This document shows, in pieces, positions 2,709 through 51,797 of a DNA stretch of 64,000 nucleotides. The DNA comes from Citreimonas salinaria (GTDB lineage: Bacteria; Pseudomonadota; Alphaproteobacteria; Rhodobacterales; Rhodobacteraceae): assembly GCF_900107235.1 (NCBI RefSeq), contig NZ_FNPF01000013.1, positions 1-64,000 on the forward strand, in the 5' to 3' direction. The notes beneath the pieces were generated by a model. It was not told the DNA's origin. It made no database searches and worked only from the letters and a program-made list of their open reading frames with translations. Within the stretch, counting starts at the first letter, position 1. Each line of letters opens with the position of its first letter. The position numbers and the translations under genes are program-made.

Positions 2709-4304
2709 ATGAAACAGACCTTCGTTGCGGCTGCGGTCGCCGCCACGCTCGCCATGGGCGCCGCCGTGCCGGTCTTTGCCGAGACACCGCCCAACATGCT
2801 GGTGATCGCCAACAGGATCGATGACATCAAGACATTCGATCCCGCCGAAAGCTTTGAATTTGCCGGCGCCGATGTCAGCCGAAACGTCTATGAAAAGCTG
2901 GTCAACTTCGACCCGCTCGACCTCGAAGCCGGATATCAGCCGCAGCTGGCCGAAAGCTGGGAGATTTCCGAGGACGGCAAGACCATCACCTTCACCATGG
3001 CTGACGGACACATGTTCTCGACCGGTCGCGAGGTGACGGCCAAGGATGCCGAATTCTCGTTGCGCCGGGCGGTTCTTCTCGACAAGACACCGTCGTTCAT
3101 TCTCACGCAGTTCGGTTTCACACCCGAAAACGTGGAAGAGACCATCGTCGCACCGGACGAGGACACGCTGGTCCTGATGTTGGACAAGCCCTACGCGCTG
3201 TCCTTCGTCCTGAACAGCCTGACCGCCACCATCGGCGGCATCGTCGACAGCGAGGCTGCGATGGCCAATGCCGTCGACGGCGACATGGGCAACGAATGGC
3301 TGCGCACGAACACCGTCGGCTCAGGTCCGTACAAGGTGGTCGACTGGAAGCCCAACGAAAGCGTCCTTATGGACCTGAATCCGGAATACCACGGCGAGAC
3401 ACCGGCCATGGAGCGGGTGATCGTCCAGCATATCCAGGAAAGCGCCACTCAGCGTCTGCAGCTGGAGCGCGGCGACATCGACGTGGCGCGCAACCTCTCA
3501 CCCGAGGATGTGGCGGGTCTCGAAGGCGTCGAAGGCGTCAAGATCGTAGACGAGTTGCGCGGGCGGCTGATGTATTTCTCGGCCAACCAGAAGAAGGAGA
3601 TGCTGGCCGACCCCAAGGTGGTCGAGGCGCTCAAGCTGGCGACCGACTATAAGGGCATGTCGGATTCGTTCCTCAAGGGTCAATACACGGTCCATCAGGC
3701 ATTCCTGCCCAGGACCTTCATGGGCGCGCTGGAAGAAACACCTTACAGCTATGACATGGAGGCCGCCAAAGCCGCGCTGGCGGAGTCCGGTTTCCCTGAA
3801 TGCGGGCCGATCAAGATCTCGGTCCGGGATGCGCAGGAGCGGATGGACATCGCCCAGTCGCTGCAGAACACCTGGGGTCAGCTCGGCTGCGACGTCGAAC
3901 TGACGGTGGGCACCGGTGCGCAGACGCTGGACCGCTACCGCGCGCGCGAGCACGACATCTATCTTGGCGCCTGGGGGCCAGACTATCCGGACCCGAACAC
4001 CAATGCCGGCACCTTCGCCTACAACCCCGACAATTCGGACGAGGCGGGCGCCACGGGCCTGCTTGCGTGGCGCAACGCCTGGGCCATTCCTGAAATGAGC
4101 GAAAAGACCCAGGCCGCGGCCGTCGAGAACGACACCGACAAGCGCCGCGAGATGTATCGCGAACTGCAGCGCGAGCATCAGCAGGTCAGCCCCTTCGGAA
4201 TCATGTTCCAGCAGATCGAGCAGAACGGGATGGGCGAGAACGTAGAGAACTTCGTCGCCGGCGGCGCGACCACAGCGGTTTCCTACTGGATCATCACCAA
4301 GTAG
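2709..4304 (+). CDS. Peptide-type ABC transporter substrate-binding protein (SBP_bac_5)
   Basis: 531 residues with a Sec signal peptide (MKQTFVAAAVAATLAMG, cleavage near VFAET) and the family 5 solute-binding fold: an early DDIKTFDPAESFEF segment, RNVYEKLVNFDP, ESWEISEDGKTITF and a GSGPYKVVDWKPNE stretch. Homologues bind di- and oligopeptides, nickel or opines in the periplasm and deliver them to DppBC-type permeases. The start follows CAGGGAGC at a good distance. The permease begins at the very next base after the stop codon. A dipeptide or modified peptide ligand is inferred from the dipeptidase next door. Confidence 0.92.
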   Translation: MKQTFVAAAVAATLAMGAAVPVFAETPPNMLVIANRIDDIKTFDPAESFEFAGADVSRNVYEKLVNFDPLDLEAGYQPQLAESWEISEDGKTITFTMADGHMFSTGREVTAKDAEFSLRRAVLLDKTPSFILTQFGFTPENVEETIVAPDEDTLVLMLDKPYALSFVLNSLTATIGGIVDSEAAMANAVDGDMGNEWLRTNTVGSGPYKVVDWKPNESVLMDLNPEYHGETPAMERVIVQHIQESATQRLQLERGDIDVARNLSPEDVAGLEGVEGVKIVDELRGRLMYFSANQKKEMLADPKVVEALKLATDYKGMSDSFLKGQYTVHQAFLPRTFMGALEETPYSYDMEAAKAALAESGFPECGPIKISVRDAQERMDIAQSLQNTWGQLGCDVELTVGTGAQTLDRYRAREHDIYLGAWGPDYPDPNTNAGTFAYNPDNSDEAGATGLLAWRNAWAIPEMSEKTQAAAVENDTDKRREMYRELQREHQQVSPFGIMFQQIEQNGMGENVENFVAGGATTAVSYWIITK

Positions 4305-5366
4305 ATGGCGGATCAGAACGTCAATCAAACGGGCGGGCGGCTTGGGCCGCCCGTCCCCATCTGGGTCAGGAAATCCCTGGCAACGGTTGCGACCGTGGCC
4401 GCGACGATCCTCGGACTGCTTTTCGTGACCTTCATGATCGGCCGTGTCATGCCGATCGACCCGGTTCTGGCGGTGATCGGCGAACGGGCGACGCAGGCGC
4501 AATACGACCAGACCTTCCGCGAGCTCGGGCTCGACCAGCCGCTGCTTGTGCAGTTCGGGATCTACGTCAAAGACGTCCTGCAAGGCGATCTCGGCGAGTC
4601 GATCCGCACCGGCGAACAAGTCACGACAGACATTGCGCGCGTCTTTCCCGCGACGCTGGAACTGGCCACGCTGGGCACTTTGTTTGGCGTCTTCCTCGGC
4701 GTGCCGCTGGGGGTCTTGGCTGCAGTCCGGCGGGGCAGCTGGATTGATCAGCTGGCGCGTTTCGTGGGGCTGATCGGATATTCGATGCCCATCTTCTGGC
4801 TGGGCCTGGTTGGACTGCTGATCTTCTACGGCATTCTCGGGTGGGTCGCGGGTCCTGGTCGACTGGGCATCTTCTATCAGGGCATAGTCGAGCCGATCAC
4901 CGGTATGCTTCTGGTCGACAGCGCGTTGCGGGGCGAATGGACGGTTTTCCGCAACGCCTTTTCACACATCATCCTGCCCGCCTCGCTGCTGGGGTACTAC
5001 AGCCTCGCCTATATCAGCCGGATGACGCGATCCTTCATGCTGGAACAGCTGAATTCCGAATACGTCACCACCGCCAGGGTCAAGGGCCTGAGCGAGTGGC
5101 AGGTGGTTTGGGGTCATGCCTTCCGCAACATCCGCATCCAGCTGGTGACTGTGATCGCGCTGGCCTACGCCAACCTGCTCGAAGGTTCGGTGCTGACGGA
5201 AATCATCTTCGCCTGGCCAGGGCTCGGACAATACATCACCACCTCGCTTCTGGCCAACGACATGAACGCCGTCCTGGGCGGCACCATCGTCATCGGAACC
5301 ATCTTCGTGGCGATCAACATCTTTTCCGACCTGCTGTACCGCTTTTTCGATCCGAGGGCCAAATGA
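4305..5366 (+). CDS. Peptide-type ABC transporter permease (DppB-like)
   Basis: 353 residues, one half of the membrane channel of a DppBCDF-type importer. About six hydrophobic segments are visible (the first near residues 24-48). The BPD_transp_1 domain carries the coupling segment EYVTTARVKGLSEWQVVWGHAFRNI, an EAA-loop equivalent that contacts the ATPases. The gene starts directly after the TAG of the binding-protein gene and overlaps the next permease by 4 nt (ATGA). No independent ribosome site is obvious, so translation probably depends on coupling. Confidence 0.92.
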   Translation: MADQNVNQTGGRLGPPVPIWVRKSLATVATVAATILGLLFVTFMIGRVMPIDPVLAVIGERATQAQYDQTFRELGLDQPLLVQFGIYVKDVLQGDLGESIRTGEQVTTDIARVFPATLELATLGTLFGVFLGVPLGVLAAVRRGSWIDQLARFVGLIGYSMPIFWLGLVGLLIFYGILGWVAGPGRLGIFYQGIVEPITGMLLVDSALRGEWTVFRNAFSHIILPASLLGYYSLAYISRMTRSFMLEQLNSEYVTTARVKGLSEWQVVWGHAFRNIRIQLVTVIALAYANLLEGSVLTEIIFAWPGLGQYITTSLLANDMNAVLGGTIVIGTIFVAINIFSDLLYRFFDPRAK

Positions 5367-6277
5367 CCGCCGACACCGGAATGCGTGCGTGGCTCCTGAC
5401 TGAAGAGCCCACCTCCCGCCGTCATGCGCGACTCGCCGCGTGGTACAAGGGTTGGCTGACCCTCCGTTCAAACACCCTGGCGATGCTTGGGCTGATCGTG
5501 CTGGCATTCCTGATTCTTGTCGCGATCTTCGCGCCCCTTCTGGCCACCCACGACCCCTTCGCGCAGGATCTCGGCCAGCGCCTGCTGGCGCCGGGGGAAG
5601 GCGGGCATCTCTTCGGCACCGACAACCTTGGGCGGGACATCTACTCGCGCCTGCTCTACGGCGCGCGCATCTCGCTCTATATCGTTTTGCTGGTGGTAAT
5701 GGTGGCTCCGGTGGTCGGCTTGATCGTGGGCACGGTCGCCGGCTATGCCGGCGGCTGGATCGACATCGTGCTAATGCGGGTCACGGACATCTTCCTCGCC
5801 TTCCCGCGCCTTATCCTCGCGCTGGCCTTCGTGGCCGCGCTCGGGGCGGGAATCGAGAACGCGGTGCTGGCAATTTCGCTCACGGCATGGCCGCCCTATG
5901 CAAGGATCGCCCGAGCCGAGACGCTGACAATCCGGCATGCCGATTACATACACGCGATCCGCCTTCAGGGTGCAGGACCACTGCGCGTCGTCACGCGGCA
6001 CATATGGCCGCTGTGCATCTCGTCGCTGGTCATCCGGGTCACGCTGGATATGGCGGGCATCATCCTGACCGCGGCGGCCCTCGGCTTCCTCGGTCTCGGT
6101 GCGCAGCCGCCCAGCCCGGAATGGGGCGCGATGATCTCGGACGGACGGCAATACATCCTTGATTCCTGGTGGGTCGCAACGATCCCCGGCATTGCGATCT
6201 TCACCATCAGCCTCGCCTTCAACCTGCTGGGGGACGGACTGCGTGACGTTTTGGACCCCAAGGACGACAACTCTTGA
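5363..6277 (+). CDS. Peptide-type ABC transporter permease (DppC-like)
   Basis: 304 residues, the second channel subunit. It has the DppC N-terminal OppC-type segment (first membrane helix at about residues 35-57), then HLFGTDNLGRDIYSRLLYGARIS, a hallmark of this family, and the coupling region RADYIHAIRLQGAGPLRVVTRHIWP (seen here as HADYIHAIRLQGAG). The start is the ATG that overlaps the stop of the preceding permease; its own stop overlaps a TTG start of the first ATPase gene. Confidence 0.92.
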   Translation: MTADTGMRAWLLTEEPTSRRHARLAAWYKGWLTLRSNTLAMLGLIVLAFLILVAIFAPLLATHDPFAQDLGQRLLAPGEGGHLFGTDNLGRDIYSRLLYGARISLYIVLLVVMVAPVVGLIVGTVAGYAGGWIDIVLMRVTDIFLAFPRLILALAFVAALGAGIENAVLAISLTAWPPYARIARAETLTIRHADYIHAIRLQGAGPLRVVTRHIWPLCISSLVIRVTLDMAGIILTAAALGFLGLGAQPPSPEWGAMISDGRQYILDSWWVATIPGIAIFTISLAFNLLGDGLRDVLDPKDDNS

Positions 6278-46509: not shown

Positions 46510-46667
46510 GATGCGGGCGGCGGGCGCGCCCGCGCTGCGACGCGCCTTCGTCACCACCTCGTGAAAGAGGGGAGAGGCCCCGCGCCCCTCGGGGGACCAC
46601 GCGGCGGATGGAAAAGCGGCCGGTTTGGTGTATGAAGCGGAAGGTCCTTGGGGAAGGGGGCCGAGGG

Positions 46668-47831
46668 ATGCATGAACACGCGCACGATCCGATCCTGGTG
46701 ATCGCCTCGCTGGCCGTTGCGCTGATGGCGGGCTTCACCGGCCTGACGCTGACGCGGGGGGCGGCGGGCTTGCCCGTGCCGCACCGCAAGGCGATCGTGG
46801 CGATGTCGGCGATCGTGCTGGGCGGAGGCATCTGGTCGATGCATTTCGTCGCCATGCTGGGACTGCGCCTGCCGGTGCCGTTCTACTACGACGCGCTGAC
46901 AACGATGATCTCGGCGCTGACCGCGATCCTGATCGTCGGGCTGGCGCTGCTGCTGATGCATTTCGGCACGCGCAGCACGGGGCGCATCGTGGTGGCGGGC
47001 GTGCTGGTGGGCGTGGGCATTCCGGTCATGCACTACATCGGCATGTGGGGCATGCGGATGGCCACGCCGGTCTATTCGCCGGCGGGGGTGGCGATCGCGG
47101 TGGCGATCTCGATCGCGCTGGGCGTGGCCGCGTTCTGGCTGGCCTATGCGGGGCGCGATATGCGCAACATCCTGGCCGGCACGCTGGGCTTCGGGATCGC
47201 GGTCTTCGCGGTGCATTTCGTGGCGATGGCGGGCACGTCCTTCGTGCCCGACGCAGGCGCGCGGGGCGCGGGCCCGGCGCTGGACAACGCCACGCTGGCC
47301 TTCGGGGTGACGTTGGCGGCGTTCCTGATCTCGGGCGCGTTCATCATGACCGGCGTGACCTTCAACGAGGTGGCGTTGTCGGCGGTCCCGGCACCCGCGC
47401 CCGCGCCCGCGCCTGCGCCCGCGGTAGAAACGGCGCCGCCCGCCGCGGTGCCGGGGCCGGCGGTCGAGGCCGGACCGGCGGACCCGCCTTCGGACACCGC
47501 GCAGCGCATCCCCTACGAGCGCGAGGGCCGCATCCGCTTCGTCGGCATCGACGAGGTCGCCGCGATCCGCGCCGAGGGGCATTACACGGTGCTGTATTTC
47601 GGCGACAGCAAGGTGCTGTGCCCGTGGTCGATCTCGGAAAGCGCGCGGCGCCTGCCCGAGGGCGACATGATCCGCACGCATCGCAGCTACATCGTCAACC
47701 GCCGCCACGTCAGCGGGTTCGAGCGCAAGAAGGACACCGGCGTGGTGTTCTTCGAGGGCGTCGGCGCGATCGGCAAGGCGCCGGTCAGCAGGGCGCGCCT
47801 GAACGCGGTGCGCGACCACCTGGGGCTTTGA
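46668..47831 (+). CDS. coxC: MHYT-LytTR membrane regulator of CO oxidation (CoxC-like)
   Basis: 387 residues. Seven or so membrane helices (about residues 8-235) carry the MHYT motifs SMHFVAM (His59), MHYIGM (His122) and VHFVAM (His183), proposed in this family to hold a metal that senses O2, CO or NO. A Pro-Ala linker (APAPAPAPAP and on, about 245-275) leads to a LytTR DNA-binding domain (about 278-387, RIRFVGIDEVAAIRAEGHYT, MIRTHRSYIVNRRHVSGFER). CoxC and CoxH of Oligotropha carboxidovorans have the same plan. Start: GGAAGGGGG precedes the ATG. The repeat array immediately downstream is its probable target. Confidence 0.85.
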   Translation: MHEHAHDPILVIASLAVALMAGFTGLTLTRGAAGLPVPHRKAIVAMSAIVLGGGIWSMHFVAMLGLRLPVPFYYDALTTMISALTAILIVGLALLLMHFGTRSTGRIVVAGVLVGVGIPVMHYIGMWGMRMATPVYSPAGVAIAVAISIALGVAAFWLAYAGRDMRNILAGTLGFGIAVFAVHFVAMAGTSFVPDAGARGAGPALDNATLAFGVTLAAFLISGAFIMTGVTFNEVALSAVPAPAPAPAPAPAVETAPPAAVPGPAVEAGPADPPSDTAQRIPYEREGRIRFVGIDEVAAIRAEGHYTVLYFGDSKVLCPWSISESARRLPEGDMIRTHRSYIVNRRHVSGFERKKDTGVVFFEGVGAIGKAPVSRARLNAVRDHLGL

Positions 47832-47880
47832 CCGCGCGGGCCCGGAGGACCCGAGTCGCACCGCCCGCGAGGCCGTGATG

Positions 47881-47957
47881 CGCCGTTGCTGCACCTGCAT
47901 ACGCCGTTCGTGAAGACCCGTTCGCCGTTCGTGCAGCGGCCCGCGCCGGTAGTGCAC
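47881..47957. promoter_or_regulatory. Four 21-bp-spaced direct repeats upstream of coxM (predicted LytTR operator)
   Basis: CGCCGTTGCTGCA (47881), CGCCGTTCGTGAA (47902) and CGCCGTTCGTGCA (47923) start exactly 21 bp apart. A weaker fourth copy, CGCCGGTAGTGCA, starts at 47944 with the same step. The CCGTTCGT core agrees with most of the LytTR half-site consensus, and LytTR proteins bind direct repeats about two helical turns apart. The array ends about 70 bp before the coxM ATG, a position fit for an activator. Assignment to the CoxC-like protein is inference. Confidence 0.75.
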
Positions 47958-48027
47958 GGCATATCGCGGCATGCCGGACGCCGCTGAACACTCCCGGTGC
48001 CGGACCAACGGCACGAGGGGAGGACAC

Positions 48028-48882
48028 ATGATACCGTCAGCGTTCGAATACCACCGGCCCGCGGATGTCGCGTCGGCGGTCAAACTGCTTGCCGAGCTCG
48101 GGGACGACGCGCGCGTGCTGGCCGGGGGGCACAGCCTGATCCCGATGATGAAGCTGCGCATGGCAGAGCTGGAGCACCTGGTGGACCTGCAGGCCGTGGC
48201 CGAGCTGAAGGCGATCTCGGTCGAGGACGGCACCGTCAGCCTTGGCGCGATGGTCACCCAGCACGACCTGATCGACAGCGAGGAGCTGTTCCGCGCAGCC
48301 CCCATCCTGCGCGAGACCGCGCTGCAGATCGCCGACCCGCAGGTGCGCTACATGGGCACGATCGGCGGCAACGTCGCCAACGGCGATCCGGGCAACGACA
48401 TGCCCGGCCTGATGCAGTGCCTAGGCGCGACCTACGTGCTGGAGGGGCCCGAGGGCCGGCGCGAGGTCGCGGCGCGCGACTTCTACGAGGCGGCCTACAT
48501 GACCGACCGCGCGGATGACGAGATCCTGGTGCAGGTGCGGTTCGCGGCGACGACGGGCGGCTACGCCTACGAAAAGCAGAAGCGCAAGATCGGCGACTAT
48601 GCCACCGCCGCCGCCGCCGTGCTGATCGAGGCCGAGGGCGGGACGGTGACGCGCGCCTCGATCGCGATGACCAACGTCAGCGACACGCCGGTGTGGTCCG
48701 AGGCCGCCGCGGACGCGCTCACCGGCACGACCTGCGACGATGCCGCGCTGCAGGCCGCGGTCGACGCCATGCTGGCCGACATCGACCCGCAGGAGGACAA
48801 CCGCGGACCGATCGAATTCAAGCGCCACCTGGCTGGCGTGATCCTGCAACGCGCCATCGCCCGCGCGTTCCAGCGCGCCTGA
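48028..48882 (+). CDS. coxM: Carbon monoxide dehydrogenase, FAD-binding medium subunit
   Basis: 284 residues of the molybdenum-hydroxylase flavoprotein family. FAD-binding marks are AGGHSLIP from residue 32 and TIGGNVANGDPGND at 111-124. It passes electrons from the 2Fe-2S subunit CoxS toward the quinone pool. GGGGAGGA precedes the ATG. It is the first structural gene of the coxMSLDEFG unit, right after the predicted LytTR repeats. The length is close to characterised CoxM proteins. Confidence 0.93.
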   Translation: MIPSAFEYHRPADVASAVKLLAELGDDARVLAGGHSLIPMMKLRMAELEHLVDLQAVAELKAISVEDGTVSLGAMVTQHDLIDSEELFRAAPILRETALQIADPQVRYMGTIGGNVANGDPGNDMPGLMQCLGATYVLEGPEGRREVAARDFYEAAYMTDRADDEILVQVRFAATTGGYAYEKQKRKIGDYATAAAAVLIEAEGGTVTRASIAMTNVSDTPVWSEAAADALTGTTCDDAALQAAVDAMLADIDPQEDNRGPIEFKRHLAGVILQRAIARAFQRA

Positions 48883-48894
48883 GGGAGGGAACCC

Positions 48895-49386
48895 ATGAGC
48901 AAGATGCACATCAAGATGACGGTCAACGGCCAGAAGAAGGAGCTTCTGTCCGAGCCGCGCCAGCTGCTGATCCACGTGCTGCGCGAGGAGCTGGGCCTCA
49001 CCGGTCCGCATATCGGCTGCGAGACGTCCCATTGCGGCGCCTGCACGGTCGAGATGAACGGCAAGTCGGTGAAGTCCTGCACCGTCTTCGCGGCACAGGC
49101 CGACGGCGCCGAGGTCACGACCATCGAGGGGCTGGGCAACCCGGACGGGCTGCACGTGCTGCAGGAGATGTTCAAGGAGCATCACGGGCTGCAATGCGGC
49201 TTCTGCACGCCGGGGATGATCACCCGCGCGCACCGGCTGCTGCAGGAGAACCCGAACCCGACCGAGGAAGAGGTGCGCTTCGGCATGGCGGGCAACCTGT
49301 GCCGCTGCACCGGCTACCAGAACATCGTGAAGGCCATCCTCGCCGCCGCGGCGGAAATGAACTCGGCCAAGGAGGCAGCGCAATGA
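48895..49386 (+). CDS. coxS: Carbon monoxide dehydrogenase, 2Fe-2S small subunit
   Basis: 163 residues with both clusters of the family: a plant-type site CETSHCGAC (Cys42, 47, 50) plus Cys62, and the second site CGFC (Cys101, 104) with CRC (Cys136, 138). It wires electrons from the Mo-Cu centre of CoxL to FAD in CoxM. It starts after GGGAGGG, 12 nt after coxM, and overlaps coxL by 4 nt. Confidence 0.95.
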
Positions 49387-51797
49387 AGGATTTCGATGAT
49401 CGCGAAGAGCGCGTCGGCAAGCTGAAGGGCCTCGGCTGCGCGCGCAAGCGGGTGGAGGACGCGCGGTTCACGCAAGGCAAGGGCAACTACGTCGACGACG
49501 TGAAACTGCCGGGCATGCTGTTCGGCGACTTCGTCCGCTCGCCCTACGCCCATGCGCGCATCAAGTCGATCGACGCGACCGCCGCACTTGAACTGCCGGG
49601 CGTGATCGCGGTGCTGACGGCCGAGGATCTCAAGCCGCTGAACCTGCACTGGATGCCCACGCTGGCCGGCGACAAGCAGATGGTTCTGGCCGACGGCAAG
49701 GTGCTGTTCCAGGGCCAGGAGGTCGCCTTCGTCGTGGCCGAGGACCGCTACATCGCCGCCGACGCGATCGAGCTGGTCGAGGTCGATTACGAGGACCTGC
49801 CGGTGATCGTCGACCCGTTCGAGGCGCTGACCACCGACGTGGTCCTGCGCGAGGATCTCGACACCTCGGAGCCCGGCGCGCACGGCCCCCGCAAGCATCA
49901 CAATCACATCTTCCTGTGGGAGGAAGGCGACAAGACCGCCACCGAGCAGGCCATCGAGTCATCCGAGGTCGTGGCCGAGGAGATGGTGTACTACCACCGC
50001 ACCCATCCCTGTCCGCTGGAGACCTGCGGCTGCGTCGCGTCGATGGACAAGGTCAACGGAAAGCTGACCCTGTGGGGCACGTTCCAGGCGCCGCACGTGG
50101 TGCGCACGGTCGCCTCGCTTCTGTCCGGCATCGCGGAACACGACATCCGGGTGATCAGCCCGGACATCGGCGGCGGCTTCGGCAACAAGGTCGGGGTCTA
50201 CCCGGGCTATGTCTGCGCCATCGTCGCGTCGATCGTCACCGGTAAGCCGGTCAAGTGGATCGAGGACCGGATGGACAACCTGATGGCCACCGCCTTCGCC
50301 CGCGACTACTGGATGAAGGGCCGGATCAGCGCCACGAAAGAGGGCAAGATTACCGGGCTGCACTGCCACGTGACCGCCGACCACGGCGCATTCGACGCCT
50401 GCGCCGACCCGACCAAGTTCCCGGCTGGTTTCTTCCACATCTGCACGGGGTCGTATGACATCCCGGTTGCCTATGTGGGCGTCGACGGGGTCTATACCAA
50501 CAAGGCGCCGGGCGGCGTGGCCTATCGCTGTTCGTTCCGCGTGACCGAGGCCGCCTATTTCATCGAGCGGATGATCGAGGTCCTGGCGATCGAGCTGAAC
50601 ATGGACGCGGCCGAGCTGCGGCGCATCAACTTCATCCGCGCGGACCAGTTTCCCTACCACTCGGCGCTGGGCTGGGAATACGACAGCGGCGACTACCACA
50701 CCGCCTGGGACAAGGCGCTGGCCGCCGTCGATTACGAGGGCCTGCGCAAGGAACAGGCCGAGCGGGTCGAAGCCTTCAAGCGCGGCGAGACGCGCACGCT
50801 GCTGGGCATTGGCCTCACGCACTTCACCGAGATCGTCGGCGCCGGGCCGGTGAAGAACTGCGACATCCTTGGCATGGGCATGTTCGACAGCTGCGAGATC
50901 CGCATCCACCCGACGGGCTCGGCCACCGCGCGGCTGGGCACGATCAGCCAGGGACAGGGCCACGCCACGACCTTCGGGCAGATCCTTGCCTCGGAAATCG
51001 GCATCTCGTCGGACAACATCACGATCGAGGAAGGCGACACCGACACCGCTCCTTATGGCCTTGGCACCTACGGCTCACGCTCGACCCCGGTGGCGGGGGC
51101 GGCGGCGGCCATGGCGGGGCGCAAGATCCGCGCCAAGGCGCAGATGATCGCGGCCTACCTGCTCGAGGTCCACGACGGCGATCTGGAATGGGACATCGAC
51201 CGGTTCGTCGTCAAGGGCGCGCCCGACCGGTTCAAGACCATGACCGAGATCGCCTACGCCGCCTACAACCAGGCCATCCCGGGCCTGGAGCCGGGGCTCG
51301 AGGCGGTCAGCTACTACGACCCGCCGAACATGACCTACCCGTTCGGCGCCTATATCTGCGTGATGGAGATCGACGTGGACACCGGCGAACACAAGATCCG
51401 CCAGTTCTACGCGCTTGACGATTGCGGCACGCGGATCAACCCGATGGTGATCGAGGGGCAGGTGCATGGCGGCCTGACCGAGGCGCTGGCCATCGCGATG
51501 GGACAGGAGATCGCCTACGACGATCTGGGCAACTGCAAGACCGGCACGCTGATGGACTTCTTCCTGCCCACGGCCGTCGAGACGCCGCACTACACCACCG
51601 ACCACACCGAAACGCCCAGCCCGCATCACCCGATCGGCGCCAAGGGCGTGGGCGAAAGCCCCAACGTGGGCGGGGTGCCGGCCTTCTCGAACGCGGTGCA
51701 CGACGCCTTCCGCGCCTTCGGTCTGCGGCAGTCGCACATGCCGCACGATCACTGGCGCGTCTGGAAGATCGCGCACGATCTGGGTCTGCACGGGTAA
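49383..51797 (+). CDS. coxL: Carbon monoxide dehydrogenase, large Mo-Cu subunit, form I
   Basis: 804 residues. The form I active-site loop AYRCSFR is at about residues 380-386; Cys383 would bind the copper of the Mo-S-Cu centre (Cys388 in O. carboxidovorans). GVGES near residue 758 carries the catalytic base Glu (Glu763 there). Other cofactor segments are [12 protein letters not shown] and [14 protein letters not shown]. With CoxM and CoxS it oxidises CO and water to CO2, protons and electrons on the cytoplasmic side. The motif separates it from form II proteins (AYRGAGR), whose CO activity is doubtful. Confidence 0.96.

Follow-up and report, generated by a model that had tools for sequence, protein, structure and literature searches.

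Four direct repeats, set in uniform 21-bp steps, lie between coxC and the CO dehydrogenase genes coxMSL of Citreimonas salinaria. Arrays of this kind have their usual place before coxM in nearly all genomes of the family that carry CoxC, their presence goes with that of CoxC, and CoxC is the single LytTR protein that we found in the C. salinaria genome. We consider it very likely that the array serves as operator for the neighbouring CoxC, which would bind it without CO and repress coxMSL until CO relieves the repression; by analogy with Afipia carboxidovorans, the function of a CO-relieved repressor operator for coxMSL appears the most likely one. The original prediction had assigned the array to CoxC, and this assignment, still a prediction from sequence, is now supported by the LytTR-operator form of the repeats, the adjacent MHYT-LytTR gene, the conservation before coxM and the Afipia precedent.

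A four-site array between coxC and coxM

In the window (the whole 64-kb stretch of DNA that was analysed) CGCCGTT begins at 47881, 47902 and 47923 and CGCCGGT at 47944, exactly as first predicted. These repeats are far above chance: the window holds three adjacent CGCCGKT pairs at 21 bp against an expected 0.04 per window, and none of 100 dinucleotide-preserving shuffles contained three. The repeated unit extends over 13 bp, with CGCCGTT followed by GCTGCA, CGTGAA and CGTGCA at sites 1 to 3, and with CGCCGGTAGTGCA as the fourth unit. LytTR direct repeats are defined by a TT core and a spacing of 20-22 bp, and the window array, with its TT core and 21-bp spacing, has this form. The predicted sites are:

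47881 to 47893, + strand: operator site 1 (predicted, upstream, weaker), CGCCGTTGCTGCA; softened-matrix score 8.7 against a null 95th percentile of 2.8
47902 to 47914, + strand: operator site 2 (predicted, strong), CGCCGTTCGTGAA; 14.9 bits
47923 to 47935, + strand: operator site 3 (predicted, strong), CGCCGTTCGTGCA; 16.4 bits, 105 bp before the coxM ATG
47944 to 47956, + strand: operator site 4 (predicted, coxM-proximal, weaker), CGCCGGTAGTGCA; softened-matrix score 8.0 against a null 95th percentile of 2.7

A matrix derived from relatives, without the window, gives the three adjacent pairs 19.3, 31.3 and 17.3 bits, and the best other pair on either strand of the window reaches 3.5 bits. The core is imperfect at sites 1 and 4. 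Site 3 stands where relatives have a retained site, some 111 bp ahead of the coxM start, and the array as a whole ends 71 bp before that start. The output of Tandem Repeats Finder at a score of at least 30 did not contain the array, probably because the similarity between periods covers no more than a part of the 21 bp.

Site 1 overlaps a TTGCTGCACCTGCATA-like module that is present in 9 of 139 loci, the window included. A CTGC-CTGCATA-like element occupies window positions 47888-47901, directly before the first strong site, and is conserved in 9/139 loci; it also precedes the first strong site in L074, L082, L083, L087, L090, L106, L123 and L140. It is perhaps an extra site, or the site of another protein.

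CoxC and the genes around the array

The array is flanked by the following genes:

46668 to 47831, + strand: coxC, MHYT sensor fused to a LytTR DNA-binding domain (Pfam MHYT 1.6e-31, LytTR 6e-16)
48028 to 48882, + strand: coxM, FAD subunit of CO dehydrogenase (Pfam FAD_binding_5, CO_deh_flav_C)
48895 to 49386, + strand: coxS, iron-sulfur subunit (Pfam Fer2_2, Fer2)
49383 to 51797, + strand: coxL, molybdenum subunit (Pfam MoCoBD_1, MoCoBD_2; AYRCSFR motif in the translation)

We take the AYRCSFR motif of coxL to denote a form I CO dehydrogenase. The coxC start at 46668 was picked by alignment with relatives and is the probable one, an upstream ATG at 46608 being possible. Searches of the 4.26-Mb genome found CoxC as its only LytTR and only MHYT protein. 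An MHYT-LytTR regulator encoded near aerobic cox genes is what one expects beside a CoxC operator, and no RcoM of PAS-LytTR type was found in this genome, the only LytTR protein found being CoxC.

Residues H325, HRS 358-360, N364 and R395 of CoxC (numbered from 46608), which we take to be the DNA-facing residues of LytTR proteins, are common to the window and Afipia proteins and are kept in nearly all relatives, H325 in 105 of 110. No LytTR residue change that might explain the CGCCG variant of the window as opposed to CGCAT stood out in the comparison with relatives. A sequence search of the LytTR domain against solved structures returned one weak relative (3d6w, E 0.0038). The third MHYT motif, at residues 201-207 in the same numbering, reads AVHFVAM, with Val for the first Met. 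Val is found at this position in 88 of 112 aligned CoxC proteins, the Afipia motif being GMHYTAM, and may bear on copper binding.

Conservation of the array before coxM

CoxC is present in 67 of 295 family genomes, that of the window included, and all 67 fall within the 72 genomes that have a close coxL. The gene coxM directly follows coxC in 65 of them and is unlinked in the other two (G007 and G278). The expectation that relatives would carry similar repeats upstream of coxM is borne out: 65 of the 67 genomes have, upstream of coxM, a pair of at least 15 bits with a spacing of 20 or 21 bp. These comprise 63 of the 65 linked and both of the unlinked cases, the misses being L060 (14.9 bits) and L070 (9.8 bits). 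A genus-level search returned only the window genome.

We extended the comparison to 139 distinct coxM upstream regions, comprising the family loci and added loci that include Hyphomicrobiales (Jiella, Aurantimonas), Ruegeria, Leisingera and Roseobacter. L001-L003, L005, L012, L073 and L081 (duplicates, or coxM-less fragments represented elsewhere), L063, L077, L079, L080 and L088 (no coxM hit) and repeats of an identical array were dropped from this set. At least 15 bits are reached by 134 of the 139 regions, which span several families, and the median of all is 39.6, against none of 2227 control chunks (same size, elsewhere in the loci, coxM-sense strand; maximum 7.3); many of the scored loci, though not the window, had also served to train the matrix, and their scores are inflated while the null is not. 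The five regions below 15 bits are L078 (contig ends just before coxM), L136 (coxM start misplaced, array seen separately), L076 (without CoxC), L070 and L060. Both sites of the pair score at least 9 bits in 75 of 80 named loci, with L082, L095, L137, L155 and L088 (which has no coxM) as the misses.

The consensus of the array unit in relatives is CGCA-N-TTCGTGCA, and the spacing among 134 arrays is 20 bp in 90 and 21 bp in 44. In agreement with these values, motif-free self-matching rises clearly above shuffles only at offsets of 20 and 21, one of which is the best offset in 113 of 135 loci. The strong site lies 99-123 bp before the coxM ATG (5-95%) although the coxC-coxM gap spans 108 to 360 bp, as expected if operator and promoter are linked.

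The number of sites is not fixed. Counting a site if it scored above the 95th percentile of out-of-register positions, we found two sites in 62 of 134 arrays, three in 64 and four in 8, the window being among the last; this count takes in L060 and leaves out L075, which lacks CoxC and is among the 134 regions of at least 15 bits. Four sites are thus rare, two or three being usual, and the proposal that the four sites hold two dimers side by side finds no special support. The published CoxC and RcoM operators have three repeats, according to the available text of PMC11347149.

The published Afipia operator and a predicted second target

The original prediction knew of no described operator for CoxC proteins, but one has been published. 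As reported in the available text (PMC11347149, NAR 2024), the MHYT-LytTR protein CoxC of Afipia carboxidovorans OM5 binds three direct repeats at PcoxB and represses; its LytTR domain binds there with a KD of about 25 nM, and repression needs all three repeats. CO, with copper present, releases CoxC from the DNA and relieves repression, and O2 restores binding after CO and does not act as an inducer. The same text presents CoxC as the first gas sensor of the MHYT type for which direct DNA binding was shown. This kind of operator was therefore already known. The CO/O2 switch proposed originally would at best be a CO-relieved repression: the CO response has its precedent in Afipia, and O2 is no inducer there.

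The published motif TTNNNGCN, given as three direct repeats about two turns apart (PMC11347149, available text), fits window sites 1 and 3, while site 2 (TTCGTGAA) and site 4 (GTAGTGCA) are each one base off. Read in the register of the family motif, the inner window sites are strong and the outer ones exceed the null 95th percentile. In the same register PcoxB contains CGCAGTTCATGCG and CGCCGTTGGTGGA at L168:3172 and 3193, 21 bp apart, and a degenerate third site at 3213. The published PcoxB repeats are out of register with these sites, which start 21 and 20 bp apart, and we infer that the published motif probably uses a frame offset from that of the family motif. We mapped the nine published PcoxB base changes: G3194 coincides with the conserved G in the second of the family-register sites, and T3218, T3219 and G3223 are the TT and G of the degenerate third site. 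As these changes strike conserved positions, the loss of binding that was published is consistent with the family register as well. Placed by the mutated bases, the published repeats (within L168:3172-3251) are separated by 21 and 18 bp, counted from edge to edge.

PcoxB is the only CoxC target named in the available text of PMC11347149, where coxM and intergenic regions appear only in descriptions of the gene cluster and of the dnaA-coxB gap. Our search of the open-access literature, which did not extend to the 1995 and 1999 Oligotropha transcription papers, found no CoxC operator on the coxM side in print. On the A. carboxidovorans plasmid pHCG3 the coxC-coxM gap seems to hold a second CoxC operator (L168:6212-6244), absent from the available text of PMC11347149: CGTATTTCGTGCA at L168:6212 scores 19.0 bits and has a weaker partner 20 bp on, at 6232. 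By tblastn, coxB was found in 1 of 12 out-of-family stretches, Afipia itself, and in none of 8 further, shorter stretches. With coxB confined to Afipia among those stretches, PcoxB looks like a local addition.

Proposed mechanism

We envisage several CoxC molecules, anchored in the membrane, whose cytoplasmic LytTR domains would line up along one face of the DNA, one domain per 13-bp repeat and two helical turns apart, with the array upstream of or over the coxM promoter. Without CO, bound CoxC would hold coxMSL off, as its Afipia counterpart does at PcoxB. Binding of CO at the MHYT copper site would then release CoxC from the DNA and allow the CO dehydrogenase genes to be transcribed.

The same CoxC might instead act with the opposite sign, activating coxM from the array in the presence of CO, in the way that RcoM, a soluble heme protein, works from its triplet sites. 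Direct repeats 20-21 bp apart that end some 70-80 bp before the start codon would suit an upstream activator site as well, and RcoM, like most LytTR regulators, is an activator that binds upstream of -35 (PMC11347149, available text). In addition, no promoter could be placed near the array: no sigma-70 consensus was found in window 47600-48200, and sigma-70-like sites in relatives score no better than shuffles. Simple repression would need the operator to overlap the promoter; the repressive mode is carried over from Afipia, and activation stays a real rival. We nevertheless think it unlikely, because the only CoxC to have been tested, that of Afipia, represses and leaves the DNA with CO (PMC11347149, available text).

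The array goes with CoxC

In addition to matrix scoring, a strict paired pattern was used to compare whole genomes. It matches once in each of 46 of the 67 CoxC genomes, by coordinates always at cox, and misses the other 21; the single match in the window genome is the window array. Among genomes without CoxC, 6 of 228 have a match, and a reversed control pattern matches in 3 of 295 genomes.

Outside the family, the best coding-sense pair falls in the coxC-coxM gap in all 15 examined loci that have coxM after coxC, Afipia included. These are 11 + 4 loci, of which L169 and L239, from Bradyrhizobium, are near-identical; plasmid loci were represented by 10 of 78 matching records, and the partial class match G405 was left out. 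The softened matrix also lists weaker pairs elsewhere in the out-of-family loci; in Afipia, apart from the two operators, these reach at most 17.1 summed bits. L234 encodes a CoxC-like MHYT-LytTR protein; its 8-kb stretch yielded no coxM, and no pair near coxC.

Sinorhizobium meliloti (L242 and L246, which are alike) and Rhizobium leguminosarum (L244) encode a full-length CoxC-like protein and have no cox genes in the stretch. Here a pair lies right after the CoxC-like gene, at L242:4286-4319 (and in L246) and at L244:4268-4301, with 29.7 and 19.8 bits, respectively. In both species the pair is followed by a short EAL-like frame; the assignment uses the annotation and, for L242, a Pfam EAL match at 4.2e-07, just under the curated cut-off, and for L244 the resemblance of the frame at 4432. 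A pair beside CoxC where cox genes are lacking ties the array to CoxC and not to the cox genes, and hints at a second use. Possibly, a gas sensor has been rewired to cyclic-di-GMP through the EAL-like gene in these rhizobia.

These observations bear on whether the array might belong to a different DNA-binding protein, of LytTR or other type, its proximity to coxC reflecting shared ancestry of the locus. Such an owner would account for the array staying at coxM in G007 and G278, where coxC lies 3.8 kb and 30 kb away and no pair was found near coxC in the stretches scanned. It would also account for the degraded pair (15.7 bits) of G108, which lacks CoxC; this genome has another LytTR protein, and its evidence on the tie between CoxC and the array is ambiguous. 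Against a different owner, no second LytTR protein was found in the window genome, and G082, which has cox genes and neither CoxC nor any LytTR protein, has no array at coxM, its one strict-pattern match lying on another contig away from the cox genes. The three rhizobial loci, which keep the pair beside CoxC, and the published Afipia mutations, which strike conserved family-register bases (PMC11347149, available text), argue in the same direction, and we judge ownership by another protein quite improbable.

Among the genomes with cox genes and no CoxC, G008 and G108 encode a different LytTR protein (L166:997-1764 and L167:916-1770), in open frames of 256 and 285 aa that have hydrophobic N-terminal segments by eye. 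The G101 contig ends 69 bases before coxM, and no coxM was found in the stretches examined for G008 and G109.

Finally, that the array is a chance or coding repeat, or an RNA element such as a leader or attenuator, is barely credible: the region is GC-rich, and 19 of 65 family loci have their first strong site starting inside the coxC frame, but the low expected number of pairs and the conservation across families in mostly non-coding DNA argue against chance or coding, and the RNA reading was rejected, as there was no Rfam match at gathering score and no terminator-like site in window 47600-48200.

Significance and comparison with known systems

Many alphaproteobacteria remove CO with this CO dehydrogenase, and the conserved operator before coxMSL points to the probable site of CoxC action in most of the organisms that were compared. 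The position before coxM appears to be a common and widely conserved CoxC operator site. More broadly, we give an even chance to a picture in which, throughout the Alphaproteobacteria and in Afipia too (L168 6212/6232), the array after coxC represents the ancestral and principal operator of CoxC, and PcoxB is an extra copy, the only one studied, with its repeats read in a shifted frame. CoxC would then act directly on the CO dehydrogenase structural genes, with two to four membrane-held molecules on the DNA, and some rhizobia would have rewired it to an EAL-type (cyclic-di-GMP) gene. What is new is the coxM-side location, the predicted second target in Afipia and the possible rhizobial rewiring, the kind of operator itself having been known since 2024. 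The 13-bp consensus can be used in binding assays, with a second CoxC target predicted in the model organism Afipia, and the array can serve as a DNA marker of CoxC-controlled loci, the rhizobial ones without nearby cox genes among them.

Canonical LytTR sites, of the AgrA and AlgR type, are direct repeats about two turns apart with a GTT core, features that the window array shares; they differ from it in usually being pairs and in being bound by soluble response regulators. The RcoM-1 operators of Paraburkholderia xenovorans are similar in combining LytTR, CO, aerobic CO dehydrogenase genes and direct repeats two turns apart. However, RcoM-1 senses CO with heme and activates, whereas the only LytTR protein of the window genome is CoxC. 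The Afipia CoxC operator resembles the window array in having an MHYT-LytTR coxC gene beside the cox genes and an array of short direct repeats. The two differ in location, with PcoxB ahead of coxB and the window array in the coxC-coxM gap, and the window array follows another consensus and has four sites.
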